Part shown: one piece after another, positions 550 to 7,822 of the stretch
How the letters are laid out: every line of letters begins with the position of its first letter
Position numbering within the stretch: position 1 is the first letter of the stretch
Source of the DNA: a virus
IMG/VR virus record: IMGVR_UViG_3300034522_000050
Coordinates: 1-29,334 of that record
Direction: 5' to 3' (one strand)
Length of the DNA: 29,334 bases
Program-made: the position numbers and the translations under genes
The notes under the pieces: generated by a model
Told to the model about the DNA's origin: nothing
Databases searched by the model: none
Seen by the model: the letters and a program-made list of their open reading frames with translations, nothing else

Positions 550-1680
550 ATGATCAGCCTCAATGGCCCATCCTCAGGCGAATCAGCTAAGGAAAAACGT
601 GACAACTTCAGCAAGCCGATCATAAGAGCTCTGGCATTGCGTGCAGGGTATTGCTGCTCTCTGTCAGAGTGTAAAAGACCGACAGTCGGTCCCAGCGAAG
701 CTGGCCCGGACAAGCATGTCAATATTGGAGTAGCCGCTCATATAAGTGCAGCTGCGCCGGGCGGTCCGAGATATGACCCCACAATGACACCGGAACAACG
801 ATCCTCCATCATGAATGGAATTTGGTTGTGCCAGAGCCATAGTCGACTTATTGATGTGAATCCTGACGCTTTCCCTGTACACCGCCTCCATGAAATCAAA
901 CTAGCTCATGAAGCAGCACAGGTAGCTCGTTTAGCCGGAGCGAGCGATCCGCTTCATGACAGCGACTTTATTGCTCTTGGCCCCGACCTAGTCTTTACAG
1001 GCGAATTAATTGGCATCGAATCCAGCATATGGTCATTCCGATTGGATCACTTCGTTATCGGGGAGCTTGGTGACCTTATCCGTTTTGGAGAGGACTTCAC
1101 AAACCTAGATCCCTACGACCGGTTTGTTCTCGTCAATGCCCTTGGCGATGGGCGCGAACTAGCTTCAGCCCCCCGGTGGTCAAAGCAGCAACAACAGTTA
1201 TCACTCGCTGTGGCTGTCATTGAAAGCTTTCCCCGCACCGATGCCCATAACCTGCCTATGGACATAGCAGTTAACGATGACAATGATATTTTCATAGCGA
1301 ACGGAGACCTGGCAACCGTTCGCGGTTTGGATGCACTTCCACAAAAAATAAAGCACTGCCTGTCTACAAGCCGAGGGGAAGTTTTTCTTCAACCTTCTCT
1401 GGGCACACGAATTCGTGAATATTCACAAGTTTTCTTTGGCTCCCCCTGGCTACCTAGGCTGATAAAGCTCGAGACCATTCGGATGGCGTGCATACCACAC
1501 GTAGATCACGCCCCCTCCAAACCGACAACCCCGCTAATGGCCGTTCGTAAGGTAGAAGCCGTAGAGATGTTATCTACTCATAGCACTGACGGATTTTTCC
1601 CGTTCAGATTTCAGATGGATATCCAAGGGGTCGGCACCTGGAGCCGCGAAATCACAATTTATATTTCGCGTGATCTCTAG
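550..1680 (+). CDS. HNH endonuclease fused to a gpW/gp25-like baseplate domain
   Basis: A 376-residue protein. Residues 25-125 form an HNH-type nuclease domain: a zinc-type Cys cluster (C35, C36, C41), the AAHI motif (H64), a GGPRYD turn, N89 in NGIWLC, then C94 and H97. This layout resembles HNH domains of anti-phage effectors such as the Cap5 N-terminus. Residues 130-230 are unrecognised. Residues 237-315 read like phage baseplate gpW/gp25: an acidic DNDIFIANGDLATVRGL strand-turn, a helix, then STSRGEVFLQPSLGTRI. The gene stands alone on the plus strand next to the attachment site, where temperate phages often carry accessory cargo, and looks richer in AT than the structural genes. The ATG at 550 has only a weak upstream AGGGA. 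The HNH assignment is good and the gp25-like one fairly good. A role in phage defence or superinfection exclusion is inference. Confidence 0.75.
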   Translation: MISLNGPSSGESAKEKRDNFSKPIIRALALRAGYCCSLSECKRPTVGPSEAGPDKHVNIGVAAHISAAAPGGPRYDPTMTPEQRSSIMNGIWLCQSHSRLIDVNPDAFPVHRLHEIKLAHEAAQVARLAGASDPLHDSDFIALGPDLVFTGELIGIESSIWSFRLDHFVIGELGDLIRFGEDFTNLDPYDRFVLVNALGDGRELASAPRWSKQQQQLSLAVAVIESFPRTDAHNLPMDIAVNDDNDIFIANGDLATVRGLDALPQKIKHCLSTSRGEVFLQPSLGTRIREYSQVFFGSPWLPRLIKLETIRMACIPHVDHAPSKPTTPLMAVRKVEAVEMLSTHSTDGFFPFRFQMDIQGVGTWSREITIYISRDL

Positions 1681-1991: not shown

Positions 1992-3269
1992 CTACTTGCA
2001 CGCCACCGTCCACAGCTGATCAAGCTTGGTCGTATAACTCTGACTCATCATTTCGCGCCGCATACCCCACTCTGGATTGCTCGGCACACTGGCGGCTCGG
2101 AGAGTGCCTCGGCCCCACCGACCATTGATCTGGTCTAGCACCGCCATCACCCGGGTCGCCTCGGCAGGCTGAGAGATGGCAAACAGGTCGTCGGTGTACT
2201 CGCCGTGCCGGCACAGGTCCAACAGCAGCACTTCCGCTTTGCTGTAGTTGAACCCTGGACGGAACAAGCGTTCGAGCGCATCGACTGCCGCCTTGGTCAC
2301 TAGGCGAACGTCATCAGTCGGGTAAGGCAGGTCCACCACCACGCCATTGGCGTACTTGGCTTCCTCAGGGTTGAACATGCCGGTGCGGATGCTGACCCTG
2401 ATCTTCTTGCACAGGGACTTCTGGGCCCGTAGCTTCTCAGAAGCACGCATCATGTAGGTGGCCACCGCCTCCTTGATGGGCGATAGCTCCGTCAGCCTCA
2501 TGCCGAACATGCGGCTGCAGCAGATCTCCTGCTTTGGCGGATCCGGTTCATCCAGCTCCAGACAAGGCGTGCCGCCCAACTCCCTGGCCGTCTTCTCGAT
2601 CACAATGCTGAACTTCTTACGGAGCGTCCACGGATCGGCTTTAGCCAGATCCATAGCCGACTTGATACCCATGGCATCAAGATGAAGTTTCATTTTGCGA
2701 CCAACACCCCACACCTCCGCAACGTCTGTATTGCGTAGTACCCAGTCACGCTTAACCGGATCGGTGATGTTGACCACCCCACCGGTTTGGGACTGCAGAC
2801 GCTTCGCGGTGTGGTTCGCTAGTTTCGCCAGAGTCTTTGTGTGAGCAATTCCAACACCGACGGGTATGCCGGTGCAGCGAAGCACCTGGGCACGAATTTG
2901 CCTGCCTAATGGATCCAGCCCATCCATACCGGTCAGATCGGCGAAGGCTTCGTCGATGCTGTACACCTCAACTGACGGCACCATCGCCTCAATCACGCTC
3001 ATGACCCGCTCGCTCATATCGCCGTAAAGAGCATAATTTGATGAGAATGGAACAATGCCGTGCTGCTTGAGCTTGTGCTTAATCTGGAAATACGGCTCGC
3101 CCATTTTGACAAATGGCTTTGCGTCGTAGCTACGGGCGATGACACAGCCATCGTTATTGCTCAACACCACGATGGGCACCTTCGCCAAATCCGGCCGGAA
3201 TACCCGCTCGCAACTAGCATAGAAGCTGTTGCAGTCAACCAGCGCAAAGGTCGGTCGCTGCTTAGACAT
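1992..3269 (-). CDS. umuC: UmuC-like Y-family translesion DNA polymerase subunit
   Basis: 425 residues, close to the 422 of E. coli UmuC. It has the Y-family catalytic signatures VDCNSFYASCE (metal ligand D12, steric-gate region F16/Y17) and YSIDEAFADLTG (D106, E107). A helix-hairpin-helix-like segment (VWGVGRKMKLHLDAMGI) and a little-finger domain follow. A DDLF motif near the C-terminus may be the sliding-clamp contact. It would be the catalytic part of an error-prone polymerase working with processed UmuD. Its start overlaps the end of umuD by 8 bases, so the two are translationally coupled and share the LexA-regulated promoter. Plasmid and phage versions are often called rulB or mucB. A phage copy would raise damage tolerance and mutation in the lysogen (inference). 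Confidence 0.95.
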   Translation of the reverse strand: MSKQRPTFALVDCNSFYASCERVFRPDLAKVPIVVLSNNDGCVIARSYDAKPFVKMGEPYFQIKHKLKQHGIVPFSSNYALYGDMSERVMSVIEAMVPSVEVYSIDEAFADLTGMDGLDPLGRQIRAQVLRCTGIPVGVGIAHTKTLAKLANHTAKRLQSQTGGVVNITDPVKRDWVLRNTDVAEVWGVGRKMKLHLDAMGIKSAMDLAKADPWTLRKKFSIVIEKTARELGGTPCLELDEPDPPKQEICCSRMFGMRLTELSPIKEAVATYMMRASEKLRAQKSLCKKIRVSIRTGMFNPEEAKYANGVVVDLPYPTDDVRLVTKAAVDALERLFRPGFNYSKAEVLLLDLCRHGEYTDDLFAISQPAEATRVMAVLDQINGRWGRGTLRAASVPSNPEWGMRREMMSQSYTTKLDQLWTVACK

Positions 3270-3687
3270 GGCTGCGCACTGTGCTGGTGATCACACCCCA
3301 GATTGACAACTCATCCCCTTCGAGAACGTACCGCGCCGGGTATTTGGGATTTTCTGACAGAAGGACAACCTCCCGGCCGCGCTTACATAGGCGCTTGCAG
3401 ACGGGCTCATTGTTCAGCAGAGCCACCACCACATGCCCGTGCGCCGGCTCAATGGCACGATCCACCACCGCGAGATCGCCTTCGAAGATACCAATCCCCT
3501 GCATGCTTTCCCCGGTGATGGCTACCAGGTACACATGCGGTGCGCGGATATTCAGGACCTCATCCAATGAGATGTGCTGCTCAATATGATCCGCTGCCGG
3601 CGAAGGAAAGCCAGCGGGAACCTGGAACGAGCACAACGGCAACTTCGCGCCTACCTCAGCGATGGGACCCAGTATGGTGAAGCTCAT
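3262..3687 (-). CDS. umuD: UmuD-like self-cleaving SOS mutagenesis protein (S24 peptidase)
   Basis: 141 residues, matching the 139 of E. coli UmuD. It has the LexA/UmuD autocleavage layout: cleavage site A25-G26 followed by FPSPAADHIEQ, nucleophile S61 in TGESM, and general base K98 in the EPVCKRL segment. There is no N-terminal DNA-binding domain, which excludes a CI or LexA repressor. RecA-DNA filaments would trigger cleavage to UmuD', which activates the neighbouring UmuC. AAGG lies 7 bases upstream of the ATG. A sigma70-like promoter (TTGACC at 3745-3750, TTAACT at 3722-3727, spacer 17, minus strand) overlaps the LexA box at 3708-3723. Confidence 0.95.
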   Translation of the reverse strand: MSFTILGPIAEVGAKLPLCSFQVPAGFPSPAADHIEQHISLDEVLNIRAPHVYLVAITGESMQGIGIFEGDLAVVDRAIEPAHGHVVVALLNNEPVCKRLCKRGREVVLLSENPKYPARYVLEGDELSIWGVITSTVRSHV

Positions 3688-3707
3688 GATGCGGCCTTTT
3701 ACAATTA

Positions 3708-3723
3708 CTGTATGAACGTACAG
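3708..3723. promoter_or_regulatory. LexA (SOS) box between umuDC and the SRAP gene
   Basis: CTGTATGAACGTACAG fits the proteobacterial LexA consensus CTGT-N8-ACAG. It lies 21 bases upstream of umuD and 65 bases upstream of the divergent SRAP gene, and overlaps the -10 element proposed for umuD. One operator could control both directions. Confidence 0.85.
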
Positions 3724-3750
3724 TTAACTTTGTAGGACGCGCGCGGTCAA
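3722..3750 (-). promoter_or_regulatory. Predicted sigma70 promoter for umuDC
   Basis: On the minus strand, TTGACC (3750-3745) and TTAACT (3727-3722) are separated by 17 bases and end at the LexA box, so bound LexA would block the promoter. The -10 match is poor, so the exact boxes are tentative. Confidence 0.45.
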
Positions 3751-3788
3751 TTTTTCTGTAGGGGATTTCGACAAGCGGAGAGGTGCGT

Positions 3789-4538
3789 ATGTGTGGGCGA
3801 TTTGTACAGTACGAAGGAATGGCGATTTTTATTGAAGAGCTGAGCCCGCAAATACAGCTATTCAGCGGATACGACGCTCAGCCAATTGATCGATACAACA
3901 TCGCACCGTCGACGCGGGTGCAGGTGCTGCACGCAAATGAGGATGGGCTGCATATAGATGCAGTCAAATGGGGATGGGCGCCGTTTTGGGCGAAAGGTAA
4001 ACGTCCGGATCCGATCAACGCTCGGGTCGAGACCGTTACCACGGGGAAGTTTTTCAAACAGCTCTGGCCCAACGGCCGTGCAATTGTGCCCAGCGAAGGC
4101 TGGTATGAATGGGTGAAAGATCCGGATGACCCGAAGAAGAAACAGCCCTACTTCATCCGACTGAAGAGCCGGCGCCCGATGTTCTTCGGGGCGCTCGCAG
4201 AGGTCTCGCCTGGGCTGGAGCCTCGCGAGGGTGATGGGTTTGTCATTATCACCGCCGCAAGTGATCAGGGAATGGTAGACATCCACGACCGGCGCCCCCT
4301 GGTACTGACCCGCGATCATGCCAATGAGTGGCTTGACCCTGGCCTTACACCTTCGCAGGCAGAGGAAATTGCAAAGGAATTGTGCCAGCCCACGGAAGAG
4401 TTTGAATGGTTTCCGGTAGGCAAAGCCGTGGGAAATGTCAGAAATCAGGGGCCGCAACTGATCGAGCCGGATCCTTCATGCGAACCACCACATGACAAGA
4501 GCGACTGCGGAGATCCACACAAAGGTGAGCAGGATTGA
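3789..4538 (+). CDS. SRAP-domain protein (YedK/HMCES family), abasic-site DNA-protein crosslinker
   Basis: 249 residues. The start is set at the ATG at 3789 rather than the GTG two codons upstream, because SRAP proteins need Cys2 as the new N-terminus after Met removal. GGAG lies 8 bases ahead. Family residues are present: C2 in MCGRF, N77 and R79 in INARVET, E103 in PSEGWYEW, H166 in DIHDRRP (HDRMP in many homologues). The protein forms a thiazolidine crosslink with abasic sites in single-stranded DNA and protects them from error-prone processing. It diverges from umuDC across the LexA box, so SOS induction is likely. The last 25 or so residues are charged and probably disordered. Shielding replicating phage DNA or a counter-defence role would be inference. 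Confidence 0.93.
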   Translation: MCGRFVQYEGMAIFIEELSPQIQLFSGYDAQPIDRYNIAPSTRVQVLHANEDGLHIDAVKWGWAPFWAKGKRPDPINARVETVTTGKFFKQLWPNGRAIVPSEGWYEWVKDPDDPKKKQPYFIRLKSRRPMFFGALAEVSPGLEPREGDGFVIITAASDQGMVDIHDRRPLVLTRDHANEWLDPGLTPSQAEEIAKELCQPTEEFEWFPVGKAVGNVRNQGPQLIEPDPSCEPPHDKSDCGDPHKGEQD

Positions 4539-4682: not shown

Positions 4683-5477
4683 TCAGAACAAGCCGCCCAG
4701 CGCTGCTGGCTCCCAATTCATGATTATCAACTCTCCACTGACCCCTGCTTTCCCCTGCCGCTGATTAGATGTGCTGTACCGGATATCAACCGTTTCGAAA
4801 TGAAACCCCTCGAACACGCGTCTTATATCGGGGTGGTCGTTGATACTGACCATCACCTTGCCTTTGCAGCGCCGCATGAATTCAGCCATCCGCTCGTAGT
4901 TCTCAAAGGGAAAGTCCACGCCATAGCCGGCCGTCTGCCAGTAAGGTGGATCCATGTAGTGGAACGTATGGGCACGGTCGTAGCGCTCGGCACATTCAAG
5001 CCAGCTCAGGTTTTCAACATAAGTGCCAGACAAACGCTGCCACGCTGCAGACAGGTTTTCCTCGATCCGCAGCAGGTTAATTGCCGGTCCGGTCGTTGCA
5101 GTGCCGAACGTTTGCCCCGTCACTTTGCCGGCGAAGGCGTGGTGCTGCAGGTAAAAGAATCGGGCTGCACGCTGGATGTCTGTGAGGGTTTCAGGGCGGG
5201 TCATCTTCTGCCACTCGAACACCTGGCGGGAGCTGAGCGCCCATTTGAACTGGCGCACGAATTCCTCCAAGTGGTTCTGTACGACGCGATACAGCGTAAC
5301 TAGGTCGCCGTTGATGTCGTTGAGGACTTCAACCGGCGCGGCCTGGGGCCGCATGAAGTAGAGCGCGGCGCCGCCGGCGAAGACTTCGACGTAGCATTCG
5401 TGGGGTGGGAAGAGCGGGATAAGGCGGTCGGCCAGGCGGCGTTTGCCGCCCATCCAAGGGATGATGGGTGTGGACAT
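4683..5477 (-). CDS. D12-class (Dam-family) DNA adenine N6-methyltransferase
   Basis: 264 residues, close to the 278 of E. coli Dam. Dam-family landmarks are present: WMGGKRRLADRLI (residues 8-20), the SAM-binding EVFAGGAALYF (31-41), and the catalytic DPPY (176-179) followed by WQTAGYG. It should transfer a methyl group from SAM to adenine N6, perhaps in GATC, though the target cannot be read from sequence. It follows the lysis genes on the same strand after about 150 bases and has its own LexA box 18 bases ahead of the ATG (5496-5511). The nearest Shine-Dalgarno-like AAGG is 12 bases from the ATG, longer than usual. A role in protecting phage DNA from restriction or altering gene expression on induction is inference. 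Confidence 0.93.
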   Translation of the reverse strand: MSTPIIPWMGGKRRLADRLIPLFPPHECYVEVFAGGAALYFMRPQAAPVEVLNDINGDLVTLYRVVQNHLEEFVRQFKWALSSRQVFEWQKMTRPETLTDIQRAARFFYLQHHAFAGKVTGQTFGTATTGPAINLLRIEENLSAAWQRLSGTYVENLSWLECAERYDRAHTFHYMDPPYWQTAGYGVDFPFENYERMAEFMRRCKGKVMVSINDHPDIRRVFEGFHFETVDIRYSTSNQRQGKAGVSGELIIMNWEPAALGGLF

Positions 5478-5626: not shown

Positions 5627-6139
5627 TTACTTCGGTGTAGAAACTTCTTTTGCGTAGGCCTGACAGGCCAGCAGGGCGATCAATCCTTGGTCGCCGGCAT
5701 CGGTGATTCCGATAATTCGTTGAGCATGCGCTGGGTCAAGTTGGGCTCGACGGGCTGCATAAACCACGCCGACGGAGCCGGGGGCGGCAGGCACGTTGCA
5801 GCCACTGGCTGAATCCGTGGTGTCGAGAAGGACTGACAGCCGCAGATCAGCAGTAGCCAGGCGATCACGCAGCCTTGAAATATTTTTCTGTGCATCACTA
5901 AATTCCTTGAAATGCGCTTCGTCTATAGATTGAAGACGGCCTTCTAGGCCCAGGCGCTTGTCCTGCTCGATACGGGCCTGGGCGGCGGCGGCATTGCTGA
6001 CCGTGCTCAGGTCCGTTTGGAACTGGGCCGCCTGCTCGGCGAGCTTCTTGCCCATACGCCAGTCCTGGACCTGCCAGGTCCCCGCCGCGCTGATGACGAT
6101 GGTCAGCAGGATCGTCGCAAGGATATGACCGGGCGTCAC
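5627..6139 (-). CDS. Rz: Inner-membrane spanin (Rz-like)
   Basis: 170 residues from the GTG at 6139, chosen because GTGA overlaps the endolysin stop by 4 bases. One N-terminal membrane segment (HILATILLTIVISAAG, about residues 4-20) is followed by a periplasmic coiled-coil stretch rich in Ala, Gln, Arg and Glu. This is the i-spanin pattern: anchored in the inner membrane and reaching across the periplasm to the outer-membrane lipoprotein encoded in another frame of the same DNA. Together they fuse the two membranes in the last step of lysis. Sequence identity with lambda Rz is low, so the call rests on topology, position after the endolysin, and the nested Rz1. Confidence 0.8.
   Translation of the reverse strand: MTPGHILATILLTIVISAAGTWQVQDWRMGKKLAEQAAQFQTDLSTVSNAAAAQARIEQDKRLGLEGRLQSIDEAHFKEFSDAQKNISRLRDRLATADLRLSVLLDTTDSASGCNVPAAPGSVGVVYAARRAQLDPAHAQRIIGITDAGDQGLIALLACQAYAKEVSTPK
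5680..5895 (-). CDS. Rz1: Outer-membrane spanin lipoprotein (Rz1-like), nested inside Rz
   Basis: 71 residues from the ATG at 5895 (AAGGA 8 bases upstream; a GTG one codon earlier is possible). It lies wholly inside the Rz gene in another frame. The N-terminus is a lipoprotein signal: basic MHRKIF, hydrophobic core CVIAWLLLI, and lipobox ICGC giving a lipidated Cys. A proline-rich stretch (LPPPAPS) follows, as in o-spanins. The mature lipoprotein would sit in the outer membrane and bind the Rz coiled coil. Confidence 0.85.
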   Translation of the reverse strand: MHRKIFQGCVIAWLLLICGCQSFSTPRIQPVAATCLPPPAPSAWFMQPVEPNLTQRMLNELSESPMPATKD

Positions 6140-6645
6140 GACATCACCCCGCCCGCCAGCCTGTACTGCTTCAGCAGATCCTCCAGCCGATGTTCGCGCT
6201 GTCCGTACCCAGCGCCAGGCAGGCTGGCCCAGATATTTCGGCACTTCGAGATTGCCGTCTCGATCCGGCCCGCAAGCACATCAGGCAGCGCGCGGCATTC
6301 GCGAATGTGCTGCAGCGCCACCAGGTCCTGGCTGATCGGGCTGAAGTCCGGCAGCTTGAGCAGAGCCTTGTAGTGCGGCCAGTCCTTCAGCATCTGCTGA
6401 TACCGGCCGGAAGCGTTGGAGGCGAGCCCCCTGCTGTTGATGGGCTTCGATGCGCGCCCCTTGGCGAATGGGTGATCCGTGAAGTCCTTGAACACCTCGG
6501 GCTTGCGGTCGCTGCCGGTCACGATCACGTCGTAGCCATCCATGGCCGTGGCCGGCGAGGTACTGGTGCCCTCACTCCAAGCAAGCATGTCGAGGAACGC
6601 CAGCGCGTTACGGCCGCCGGCGATCGATTCAGAAAGTCGTGCCAT
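6136..6645 (-). CDS. R: Lambda R-type endolysin (GH104 lytic transglycosylase)
   Basis: 169 residues, close to the 158 of lambda gpR. It shares FLDMLAWSEGT (catalytic Glu E25), GYDVIVTG, DHPF, ASGRYQ, DFSPISQDLVALQ and NIWASLPGAGYGQ with lambda R. The enzyme cuts the glycan strand of peptidoglycan and forms an anhydro product. There is no signal peptide, so release would need a holin, and none is recognised in this window. Its ATG overlaps the stop of the GH19-like remnant upstream (TAATG), and its ribosome-binding site (GGAGA) lies inside that remnant. Confidence 0.95.
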   Translation of the reverse strand: MARLSESIAGGRNALAFLDMLAWSEGTSTSPATAMDGYDVIVTGSDRKPEVFKDFTDHPFAKGRASKPINSRGLASNASGRYQQMLKDWPHYKALLKLPDFSPISQDLVALQHIRECRALPDVLAGRIETAISKCRNIWASLPGAGYGQREHRLEDLLKQYRLAGGVMS

Positions 6646-6728
6646 TACATTTCTCCAGATAAAAAAATACCGGCTAGCGGGCCGGCGTTCGGGAGGATCT
6701 GCAGCAGTTGCTGCTCATTGATCGGCAT
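6645..6728 (-). pseudogene. 27-codon N-terminal remnant of a GH19-type endolysin
   Basis: The frame reads MPINEQQLLQILPNAGPLAG and then IFLSGEM before TAA. The first 22 residues look like the start of GH19 chitinase-type phage endolysins, where QQLLQILPNA is followed by AGVFV and a large catalytic domain. Here the match stops abruptly and the lambda R-type endolysin begins at once. An AGGAGA site lies 6 bases before the ATG. The simplest reading is that the original GH19 endolysin was replaced, leaving its translation-initiation region and first codons as a leader that now couples to the new enzyme. A functional leader peptide is also possible. Confidence 0.6.
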
Positions 6729-6743
6729 ACTTTTCTCCTGACG

Positions 6744-6766
6744 AAAAAAAGCCGCTCATTGGCGGC
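6744..6766 (-). terminator. Hairpin terminator after tail gene D
   Basis: On the minus strand GCCGC pairs with GCGGC around CAATGA and is followed by seven T. It separates the tail operon from the lysis genes. It belongs to a family of similar hairpins also found at 7845, 13737, 20296 and 23389. Confidence 0.75.
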
Positions 6767-6787
6767 CAATAACGGAACGTTAGTGGT

Positions 6788-7822
6788 TCAGTCGAGTTGC
6801 AGAACCGTTAAAGGCCCTTTCTTTTTCTTGCCCTTGGCGTCGGGCTTACCTTTGTTACCGGCATTGCACTCCACCGTGGTGGTCCACCCAGCCTGATTCC
6901 ACATCTGCTCAACGGAATCGGCTAGGTACTCACCATCCGCGCCATCCTTAAAGCCCTGTGCATTCAGGGGTGACTCCGCGAAGACGTCTGTGCGGCCACT
7001 CATTTCAAGACGCACACCGGCAGTTGAACGGTTAAACCCGGCAAGGCGTGCCTTGGCGGCCGCTTCAGCTGCCGACTTGTTCGCATGTATGTGCCGGTCG
7101 GTATGGACTGGCGGGTCACCTGCAGCGTTTTCATTGTCCACTTCCAGGGTGACCAGCTCACCACTGGAATCTTGGTACGCGGCGCGAGCCGACTTTTTTA
7201 CCGAGTCATCACCAAAACGAAACTGGTAACGGCTTACATCTGCTCTATGAATAATGACCGCCGACAGCGTCTTGCCGCTTGCACTTTTCCCAGTATCGCG
7301 GGGCAACACGAGAAGCTTGCCGTCCGCCACCTTGGCCGTGCAGTCGTACTGCTTTGCCAGGCGATTGATGTAGTTGAGGTCCGACTCTCCCATTTGGTCG
7401 GCACGCTCAACGATGGTTTCCACCGGACACTCCGGTTCCCAGCCGTTGCGTTTGGCGACGTCGGCCACAATGCTTGCCAGACTGACGCCCTCCCAGCTGC
7501 CACTGCGCGTTGTCTTGGCAGCGCTGCGTGTGTCGCTGGACTTGCTGCGAATAACGATGGTGTCCGGCGGGCCGGAGAACTCCACTTCGTCGACGGTGTA
7601 GCGGCCCAGCAAGGTCAGTTTGTCTTCTGCCCAACCCAGGTAGACGGCGATGTTCGCGCCGCGCTTGGGCAGCGCCAAGGCGCCGTCGCGGTCATCCAGG
7701 CGCAATTCGAAGTCATCCGAATCAACGCCGGGTTTGTCGATCGTTCGCGCCAAAAGCAGCCGATCGTTAATCAGGTTCGTGACGTCGACACCATCGGCCA
7801 CGATGCGGTGCACTGGTATCAA
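6788..7822 (-). CDS. D: P2 gpD-like tail/baseplate hub protein (late control D family)
   Basis: 344 residues, usual for the family (P2 gpD 387). Features shared with P2 gpD include DVTNLINDRLLLARTID, FELRLDDRDGALALPKRGANIAVYLGW, GRYTVDEVEFSGPPDTIVIRS and SDLNYINRLAKQYDCTAKV. The protein forms the hub at the tail end of the spike, like gp27 of T4. The TTG at 7822 is taken as start because GGAG lies about 10 bases ahead. A basic GKPDAKGKKKKG stretch precedes the C-terminus. Unlike in P2, no ogr-like activator follows. Confidence 0.93.
   Translation of the reverse strand: MIPVHRIVADGVDVTNLINDRLLLARTIDKPGVDSDDFELRLDDRDGALALPKRGANIAVYLGWAEDKLTLLGRYTVDEVEFSGPPDTIVIRSKSSDTRSAAKTTRSGSWEGVSLASIVADVAKRNGWEPECPVETIVERADQMGESDLNYINRLAKQYDCTAKVADGKLLVLPRDTGKSASGKTLSAVIIHRADVSRYQFRFGDDSVKKSARAAYQDSSGELVTLEVDNENAAGDPPVHTDRHIHANKSAAEAAAKARLAGFNRSTAGVRLEMSGRTDVFAESPLNAQGFKDGADGEYLADSVEQMWNQAGWTTTVECNAGNKGKPDAKGKKKKGPLTVLQLD

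Follow-up and report, generated by a model that had tools for sequence, protein, structure and literature searches.

A remnant of a GH19 endolysin gene, with a terminator-like hairpin, ahead of the lambda R-type endolysin gene of a Pseudomonas prophage

The window, i.e. the complete 29,334-base IMG/VR virus record analyzed here, is derived from a Pseudomonas prophage and, like P2-like phages, has genes for gpD, gpU and tail-X. Its lysis locus raises the question of what the 27-codon reading frame (hereafter the stub) that stops exactly at the start of the endolysin gene is, and how it came to be there. The order on the minus strand is a gpD-like hub gene, a hairpin with a T-run, the sequence AGGAG, the stub, the TAATG overlap, the endolysin gene and the genes of Rz/Rz1-like spanins. 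The initial annotation had taken the stub for the beginning of a GH19 endolysin gene that had been replaced by a gene for another lytic enzyme. The individual features are as follows (sequences used for comparison are designated by L numbers):

6788-7822, minus strand: baseplate hub gene of the gpD type, which flanks the lysis module on its upstream side (PF05954, E 4e-13; phrog_52, E 5e-109).
6743-6767, minus strand: first terminator-like hairpin (GGCCGCCAATGAGCGGCT and a T-run), 5' of the stub, from the terminator scan.
6735-6739, minus strand: Shine-Dalgarno sequence of the stub, AGGAG, read from the sequence.
6645-6728, minus strand: GH19 N-terminal stub ORF, 27 codons, reading MPINEQQLLQILPNAGPLAGIFLSGEM before the stop codon TAA, which overlaps the next ATG.
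6661-6686, minus strand: second terminator-like hairpin, within the stub (GCCGGC CCGCTA GCCGGT A TTTTTTT), from GH19 codons ~16-22.
6656-6675, minus strand: junction zone between GH19-derived and R-derived DNA, from the homology boundaries of relatives.
6653-6656, minus strand: GGAG, which lies within the last codons of the stub and is the Shine-Dalgarno sequence of the R-type gene, read from the sequence; this leader recurs in stub-less R genes.
6136-6645, minus strand: lambda R-type (GH104) endolysin, 169 aa (phrog_90, E 1.7e-57; PDB 1am7/3d3d, E ~1e-37).
5627-6139, minus strand: Rz-like spanin (phrog_2466, E 5e-49).
5680-5898, minus strand: Rz1-like lipoprotein, encoded within Rz (PF06085, E 1e-5, short of the curated cut-off).

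The assignment of the 169-aa ORF to the lambda R type follows from its full-length match (residues 15-167, E ~1e-37) to the lambda lysozyme structures 1am7 and 3d3d, and its translation contains WSEGT, which we take to be the context of the catalytic Glu in R-type (GH104) endolysins; comparison of the ORF with Pfam gave no family match. The Rz-like gene probably begins with a GTG codon that overlaps the end of the R gene, as judged from the Rz of L016, which starts with VTPWQI. In L116, which has the same stub-R junction as the window, a different Rz-like gene follows the R gene, so the spanin module also exchanges independently.

Is the stub really derived from a GH19 gene? In one pairwise comparison, it was identical at 18 of 25 positions (E 4e-11) to the full GH19 endolysin encoded at the same locus in L001, and it carries the N-terminal segment of GH19 endolysins (PF00182 / phrog_181) with QILPNAG..AG.F. 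Relatives of the locus were gathered by anchoring on gpD, and homologues of the hub gene were found in L001, L002, L003, L008 and L016. Two of these relatives, L001 and L008, possess a complete GH19 endolysin 3' of gpD (PF00182 above the cut-off; starting MPINEKQLQQILPNAGRKAGVFVPG / MPLTQSQLLQILPNARPVAGVFVP), and their gpD and spanin genes are homologous to the flanks in the window. In L002 and L003 the same place is occupied by a SleB-type (PF07486-like) hydrolase, with a matching order of hairpin, T-run and Shine-Dalgarno sequence immediately 5' of the enzyme. Searches of family libraries with the 27 codons returned no family match, so the stub includes no GH19 catalytic domain, and a PF00182 search of the whole record found no GH19 gene, which is weak evidence as this search had no positive control match. 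The stub is a remnant and not a GH19 enzyme. Its beginning, with AGGAG before the ATG and the 18/25 identity to the GH19 protein, and its stop at TAATG, where the enzyme matching phrog_90 and 1am7/3d3d starts, agree with what had been noticed initially. A chance similarity between the stub and GH19 was rejected in view of the E-value, the full genes at the same locus and the many independent loci. A leader peptide unrelated to GH19 was likewise rejected as the origin of the stub, and is retained as its possible present function.

The GH19-derived portion ends at about codon 22-24; a junction about 22 codons into the old gene had been proposed initially. The last codons of the stub (about SGEM, 'TCTGGAGAAATG') are not GH19 sequence, because stub-less R genes have the same leader (TTTTTTTCGCCTGGAGAAATGTAATG in L019); they form the leader of the R gene, Shine-Dalgarno sequence included, and the R gene arrived with its own ribosome-binding site. 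The nucleotide homology to the window ends at 6663 in L001 and L008 and at 6726, the ATG of the stub, in the SleB-type loci L002 and L003, and it starts at 6675 (L010) or 6667 (L019) in R genes without a stub. With the GH19-side end at 6663 and the R-side start at 6667-6675, the joint falls at GH19 codons 21-24, inside the hairpin and T-run. The full GH19 allele L369 is identical to the stub of L016 through CCCTCGAGCCGGTATTTTTTTGCCTG, and the R leaders of L024 and L028 have (A)TTTTTTTGCCTG in common with L369, which makes this stretch a plausible crossover site. An origin of the T-run and the GGTAT spelling from the R side was dropped, since L369, a full GH19 gene, has the identical GGTATTTTTTTGCCTG spelling. 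Replacement of one lytic enzyme by another is therefore borne out by the full GH19 genes at this locus in L001 and L008 and by homology boundaries that meet at the stub hairpin; possibly the swap did not take place in this phage, which could have inherited an older block of stub and R gene.

The initial picture of a fossil of one precise swap holds with respect to the replacement, but the fossil is not private to this phage. The stub-R junction of the window recurs in L015, L016 and L116. A scan of viral contigs and 399 Pseudomonas-genus genomes with DNA patterns, in which several contigs were near-identical copies, revealed stubs ahead of at least four further enzyme types. Stubs precede other R-type genes (L034, L115, L091, L266), PF07486 hydrolases (L090, L097, L102, L103, L109), PF00959 (phage lysozyme) genes (L092, L093, L117, L267) and phrog_873 endolysins (L096, L107, L112), and in L100 (11541, plus strand) the stub runs on in frame into a full second GH19 endolysin, which results in two tandem N-termini. 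Five enzyme families (R-type, PF07486, PF00959, phrog_873 and GH19) are preceded by this stub; one member of each class was scanned against the family libraries and the rest were assigned by evident similarity to the scanned member. Wherever a co-directional enzyme gene lies directly 3' of the stub, its ATG is found 80-84 nt from the stub ATG, and this holds for every class. The stub pattern occurs in 3 places in the 399 genomes, so stubs are much rarer than full GH19 genes. Relatives do not all carry the frame ahead of R-type enzymes: most R-type genes are without it, and those frames that do occur correspond to alleles of full GH19 genes.

Named phages provide further cases. In D3, phi297 and PSA04 the stub reads MPITEQxLLxILPNAGPRAGVFVGA, followed by unrelated codons, and it is separated from the R-type endolysin by an HNH or hypothetical gene on the opposite strand. 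YMC11/02/R656 and P7869 have a lysozyme-type enzyme and a break at the hairpin; LC3I3 has a complete GH19. The stub accounts for small 'hypothetical' or unannotated frames in phages such as D3 and P7869. The D3 stub (L269 2501-2569; NC_002484.2 24666-24734) is unannotated and lies between the O-antigen polymerase gene and the opposite-strand HNH gene, ahead of the R-type endolysin orf31, and phi297 and PSA04 are alike in this respect.

What is special about the place where the breaks occur? Intact Pseudomonas GH19 genes contain, at codons 14-22, the stem AACGCC(G/C)GC..GC(C/G)GGCGTT followed by T's. This hairpin is present in 64 of 70 GH19 genes of a sample drawn by the enzyme body alone, and in 99 of 102 genes of a motif-based sample, as compared to 6 of 1380 sequence windows elsewhere in those genes. 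In 123 of 126 genes, codon 16 begins with a base that is complementary to the third, synonymous position of the Ala codon opposite it in the stem (G-C in 87, C-G in 30, A-T in 6); three other conserved Ala codons in the same 126-gene set show no link to codon 16 and vary freely. A further matched change is seen in L333, where TCC..GGA replaces GCC..GGC. The hairpin valine codon is GTT in 125 of 126 cases versus 80 of 784 elsewhere, and the hairpin phenylalanine codon is TTT in 123 of 137 cases versus 85 of 511 elsewhere, figures to be read as effect sizes, as the significance of this bias ignores relatedness. Several genes devoid of the hairpin (L329, L352, L360, L362, L363) are also devoid of the T-run and use TAC or TTC. 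The hairpin type switches about 10 times along the GH19 tree, with 8 independent pairs on the best tree and 3, all concordant, if only supported branches are considered; block exchange of N-termini could spread the paired arms together. Selection on the stem and T-run is seen in the intact GH19 genes, with relatedness only partly controlled, and an intrinsic terminator appears to be built into codons 14-22 of Pseudomonas GH19 genes. A further hairpin is found upstream of the ORF in 51 of 102 GH19 genes.

The stub of the window retains such a structure (6686-6669, minus strand), with 6 pairs, a loop of 6 and then ATTTTTTTAT, which has the layout of an intrinsic terminator (a G+C-rich stem of five or more pairs, a short loop and a T-run). 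Against the terminator reading, it folds only moderately better than shuffles (z -1.6), and the terminator scan of the window reported 6 sites versus 3.6 in shuffles. Two terminator-like elements lie between gpD and R; an Rfam search of 6100-6900 returned nothing at E <= 1. A majority of the closest stub-less R-type genes exhibit a hairpin, a T-run and a CCTGGAG leader immediately 5' of the start codon. The initial annotation had regarded the translation start as the part that was retained. This start may have been kept as a leader for the R gene, but what looks functional is the terminator-like hairpin, which is conserved in intact GH19 genes, and not the start alone.

We consider it probable, on the strength of these comparisons, that the stub is a recombination remnant: a GH19 gene would have been replaced by an R-type gene with the terminator and its T-run as the crossover linker, and the hairpin most likely still terminates transcription. 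The sequences themselves show the GH19 origin, the common locus, the junction, its repeated use with several enzymes and the conserved hairpin; crossover by microhomology, termination and any control through stub translation are inferred. GH19 codons 14-22 provide a terminator-like hairpin and a U-tract, and the R-type and other compared enzymes follow a similar hairpin, T-run and GCCTGGAG Shine-Dalgarno leader. A crossover by microhomology in the common T-run/GCCTG stretch would remove the GH19 body, and the new enzyme gene would join at a fixed distance 3' of the GH19-internal hairpin. Since the stub keeps its start site and ends at TAATG, it should be translatable up to the new gene, and since the hairpin of GH19 lies inside the ORF, the stub would give the replacement enzyme its usual preceding hairpin. 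Transcripts coming from the tail operon may be limited or gated at the retained hairpin before they reach the lysis gene. Termination could be relieved by a ribosome that passes through the hairpin as it translates the stub, or an antiterminator might offer an alternative route of read-through, as AlpA does at alpBCDE (PMC7969949). The stub of L109 has lost its ATG and that of L015 has a stop in the loop, so stub translation is not strictly needed everywhere. A bolder version, which we put forward only tentatively, is that the 5' end of GH19 genes across Pseudomonas phages is an attenuator that gates lysis and is opened only by leader translation or by a phage antiterminator, and that its 27 codons have become a portable cassette that drives at least five unrelated lysis enzymes.

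Or perhaps the stub is a selected regulatory uORF comparable to the pyrBI attenuator, whose link to GH19 is incidental or whose sequence was captured by GH19 as an N-terminus? The hairpin is indeed inside the ORF, which in most cases stops past the terminator, close to the next start; the ATG is retained in 30 of 33 stubs, most of them with a Shine-Dalgarno sequence, and coupled translation is able to suppress terminators of the pyrL type (PMC5021804). Conservation of the stub frame is not counted as proof of function, because codons 9-16 are dictated by the search patterns and the stubs are recent. In other genera, GH19 proteins (L281, L282) possess the corresponding N-terminal region and lack the hairpin, which indicates that GH19 came first, that the hairpin arose within a GH19 gene that already existed and that the segment in the stub is old GH19 sequence. 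Moreover, different stubs closely match different full GH19 alleles (stub L164 and L224 with 0 mismatches in 75 nt; stub L093 and L144 with 1 mismatch in 70 nt), which fits repeated truncation better than one old leader, and most R-type genes do without a stub. We therefore regard an origin as a functional leader as unlikely.

Compared to the recombination remnant with a retained terminator, an inert scar, in which both the stub and the hairpin would be without a role and would persist only through recency, is rather improbable. Several stubs are near-identical to living GH19 alleles along their whole length, and the ATG, the frame or the T-run has been lost in L109, L015, L271 and L275, as would be expected of such a scar; however, the hairpin and T-run are strongly selected in intact GH19 genes, and the hairpin-T-run-Shine-Dalgarno leader before most of the closest stub-less R-type genes suggests that the kept hairpin fills the normal place of a leader. 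Finally, slippage of polymerase or ribosome on the T7 run, joining the GH19 N-terminus to the R enzyme, can hardly be entertained, for although the R frame of the window is open from the T-run to its ATG (ATC TGG AGA AAT GTA ATG), the T-run is not kept at other junctions (CGTTTCTAC in L034, CGTTTTCATTTC in L117) and the R gene has its own Shine-Dalgarno sequence and an ATG that stub-less relatives also use.

Tailed phages exhibit modular mosaicism with boundary ('linker') sequences between modules. The stub junctions resemble it in that genes of differing origin are joined at short common sequences, and differ from the usual linkers in that the common sequence is a terminator in an ORF and each exchange leaves a recognizable N-terminal fossil. 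Exchange of lysis enzymes between phages is already known: in the recombination between a lactococcal P335 phage and the prophage bIL286, a lysis enzyme was likewise swapped for a different one while the neighboring genes stayed (PMC9371310). That exchange involved long flanking homology and took several genes (PMC9371310), whereas here the crossover falls at a terminator-like T-run near the 5' end of the old coding sequence, a stub of translated length is left and several enzyme families use one junction site. The exact crossover points of such exchanges are seldom visible; the repeated junction with its N-terminal fossil reveals the site, and the terminator and T-run common to unrelated enzyme genes suggest why exchanges occur there.

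With respect to regulation, lambda Q is an antiterminator that reads through a terminator ahead of the lysis genes. AlpA reads through an intrinsic terminator ahead of the alpBCDE lysis genes (PMC7969949). The stub locus shares with these systems an intrinsic-terminator-like element that immediately precedes Pseudomonas lysis genes or coincides with their start, but here the element resides inside the enzyme coding sequence; no antiterminator was identified within this record. The likeness to the pyrBI/pyrL attenuator consists of a short leader ORF with a Shine-Dalgarno sequence that reads across a terminator hairpin with its U-tract and stops close to the following start codon (PMC5021804), a layout found in the window and most other stubs with the exception of L015 and L109; unlike pyrBI/pyrL, the leader ORF is here a truncated enzyme gene. 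Neither this stub nor a terminator within the beginning of GH19 endolysin genes was described in the open-licence papers searched. The hairpin within the 5' codons of most Pseudomonas GH19 endolysin genes, backed by codon covariation, predicts control of lysis.

The genomic neighborhood of the lysis module includes a D12-class adenine methyltransferase directly behind the spanins (4683-5477, minus strand; PF02086; PADLOC MTase_II, E 6e-100), which is kept in L001, L002 and L016. Further toward the prophage end, positions 1992-4538 encode a UmuC-like polymerase (PF00817), an S24/UmuD-like peptidase and an SRAP protein (PF02586), an SOS-related cluster that adjoins this end. A 376-aa ORF at 550-1680 (plus strand), with no Pfam match, has an N-terminal HNH-type effector-like domain (PADLOC PDC-M68A, E 7e-25), with weaker matches to SAVED_HNH and other endonuclease effectors, and a C-terminal half that received no assignment; it lies at the prophage end and may be a defence gene.
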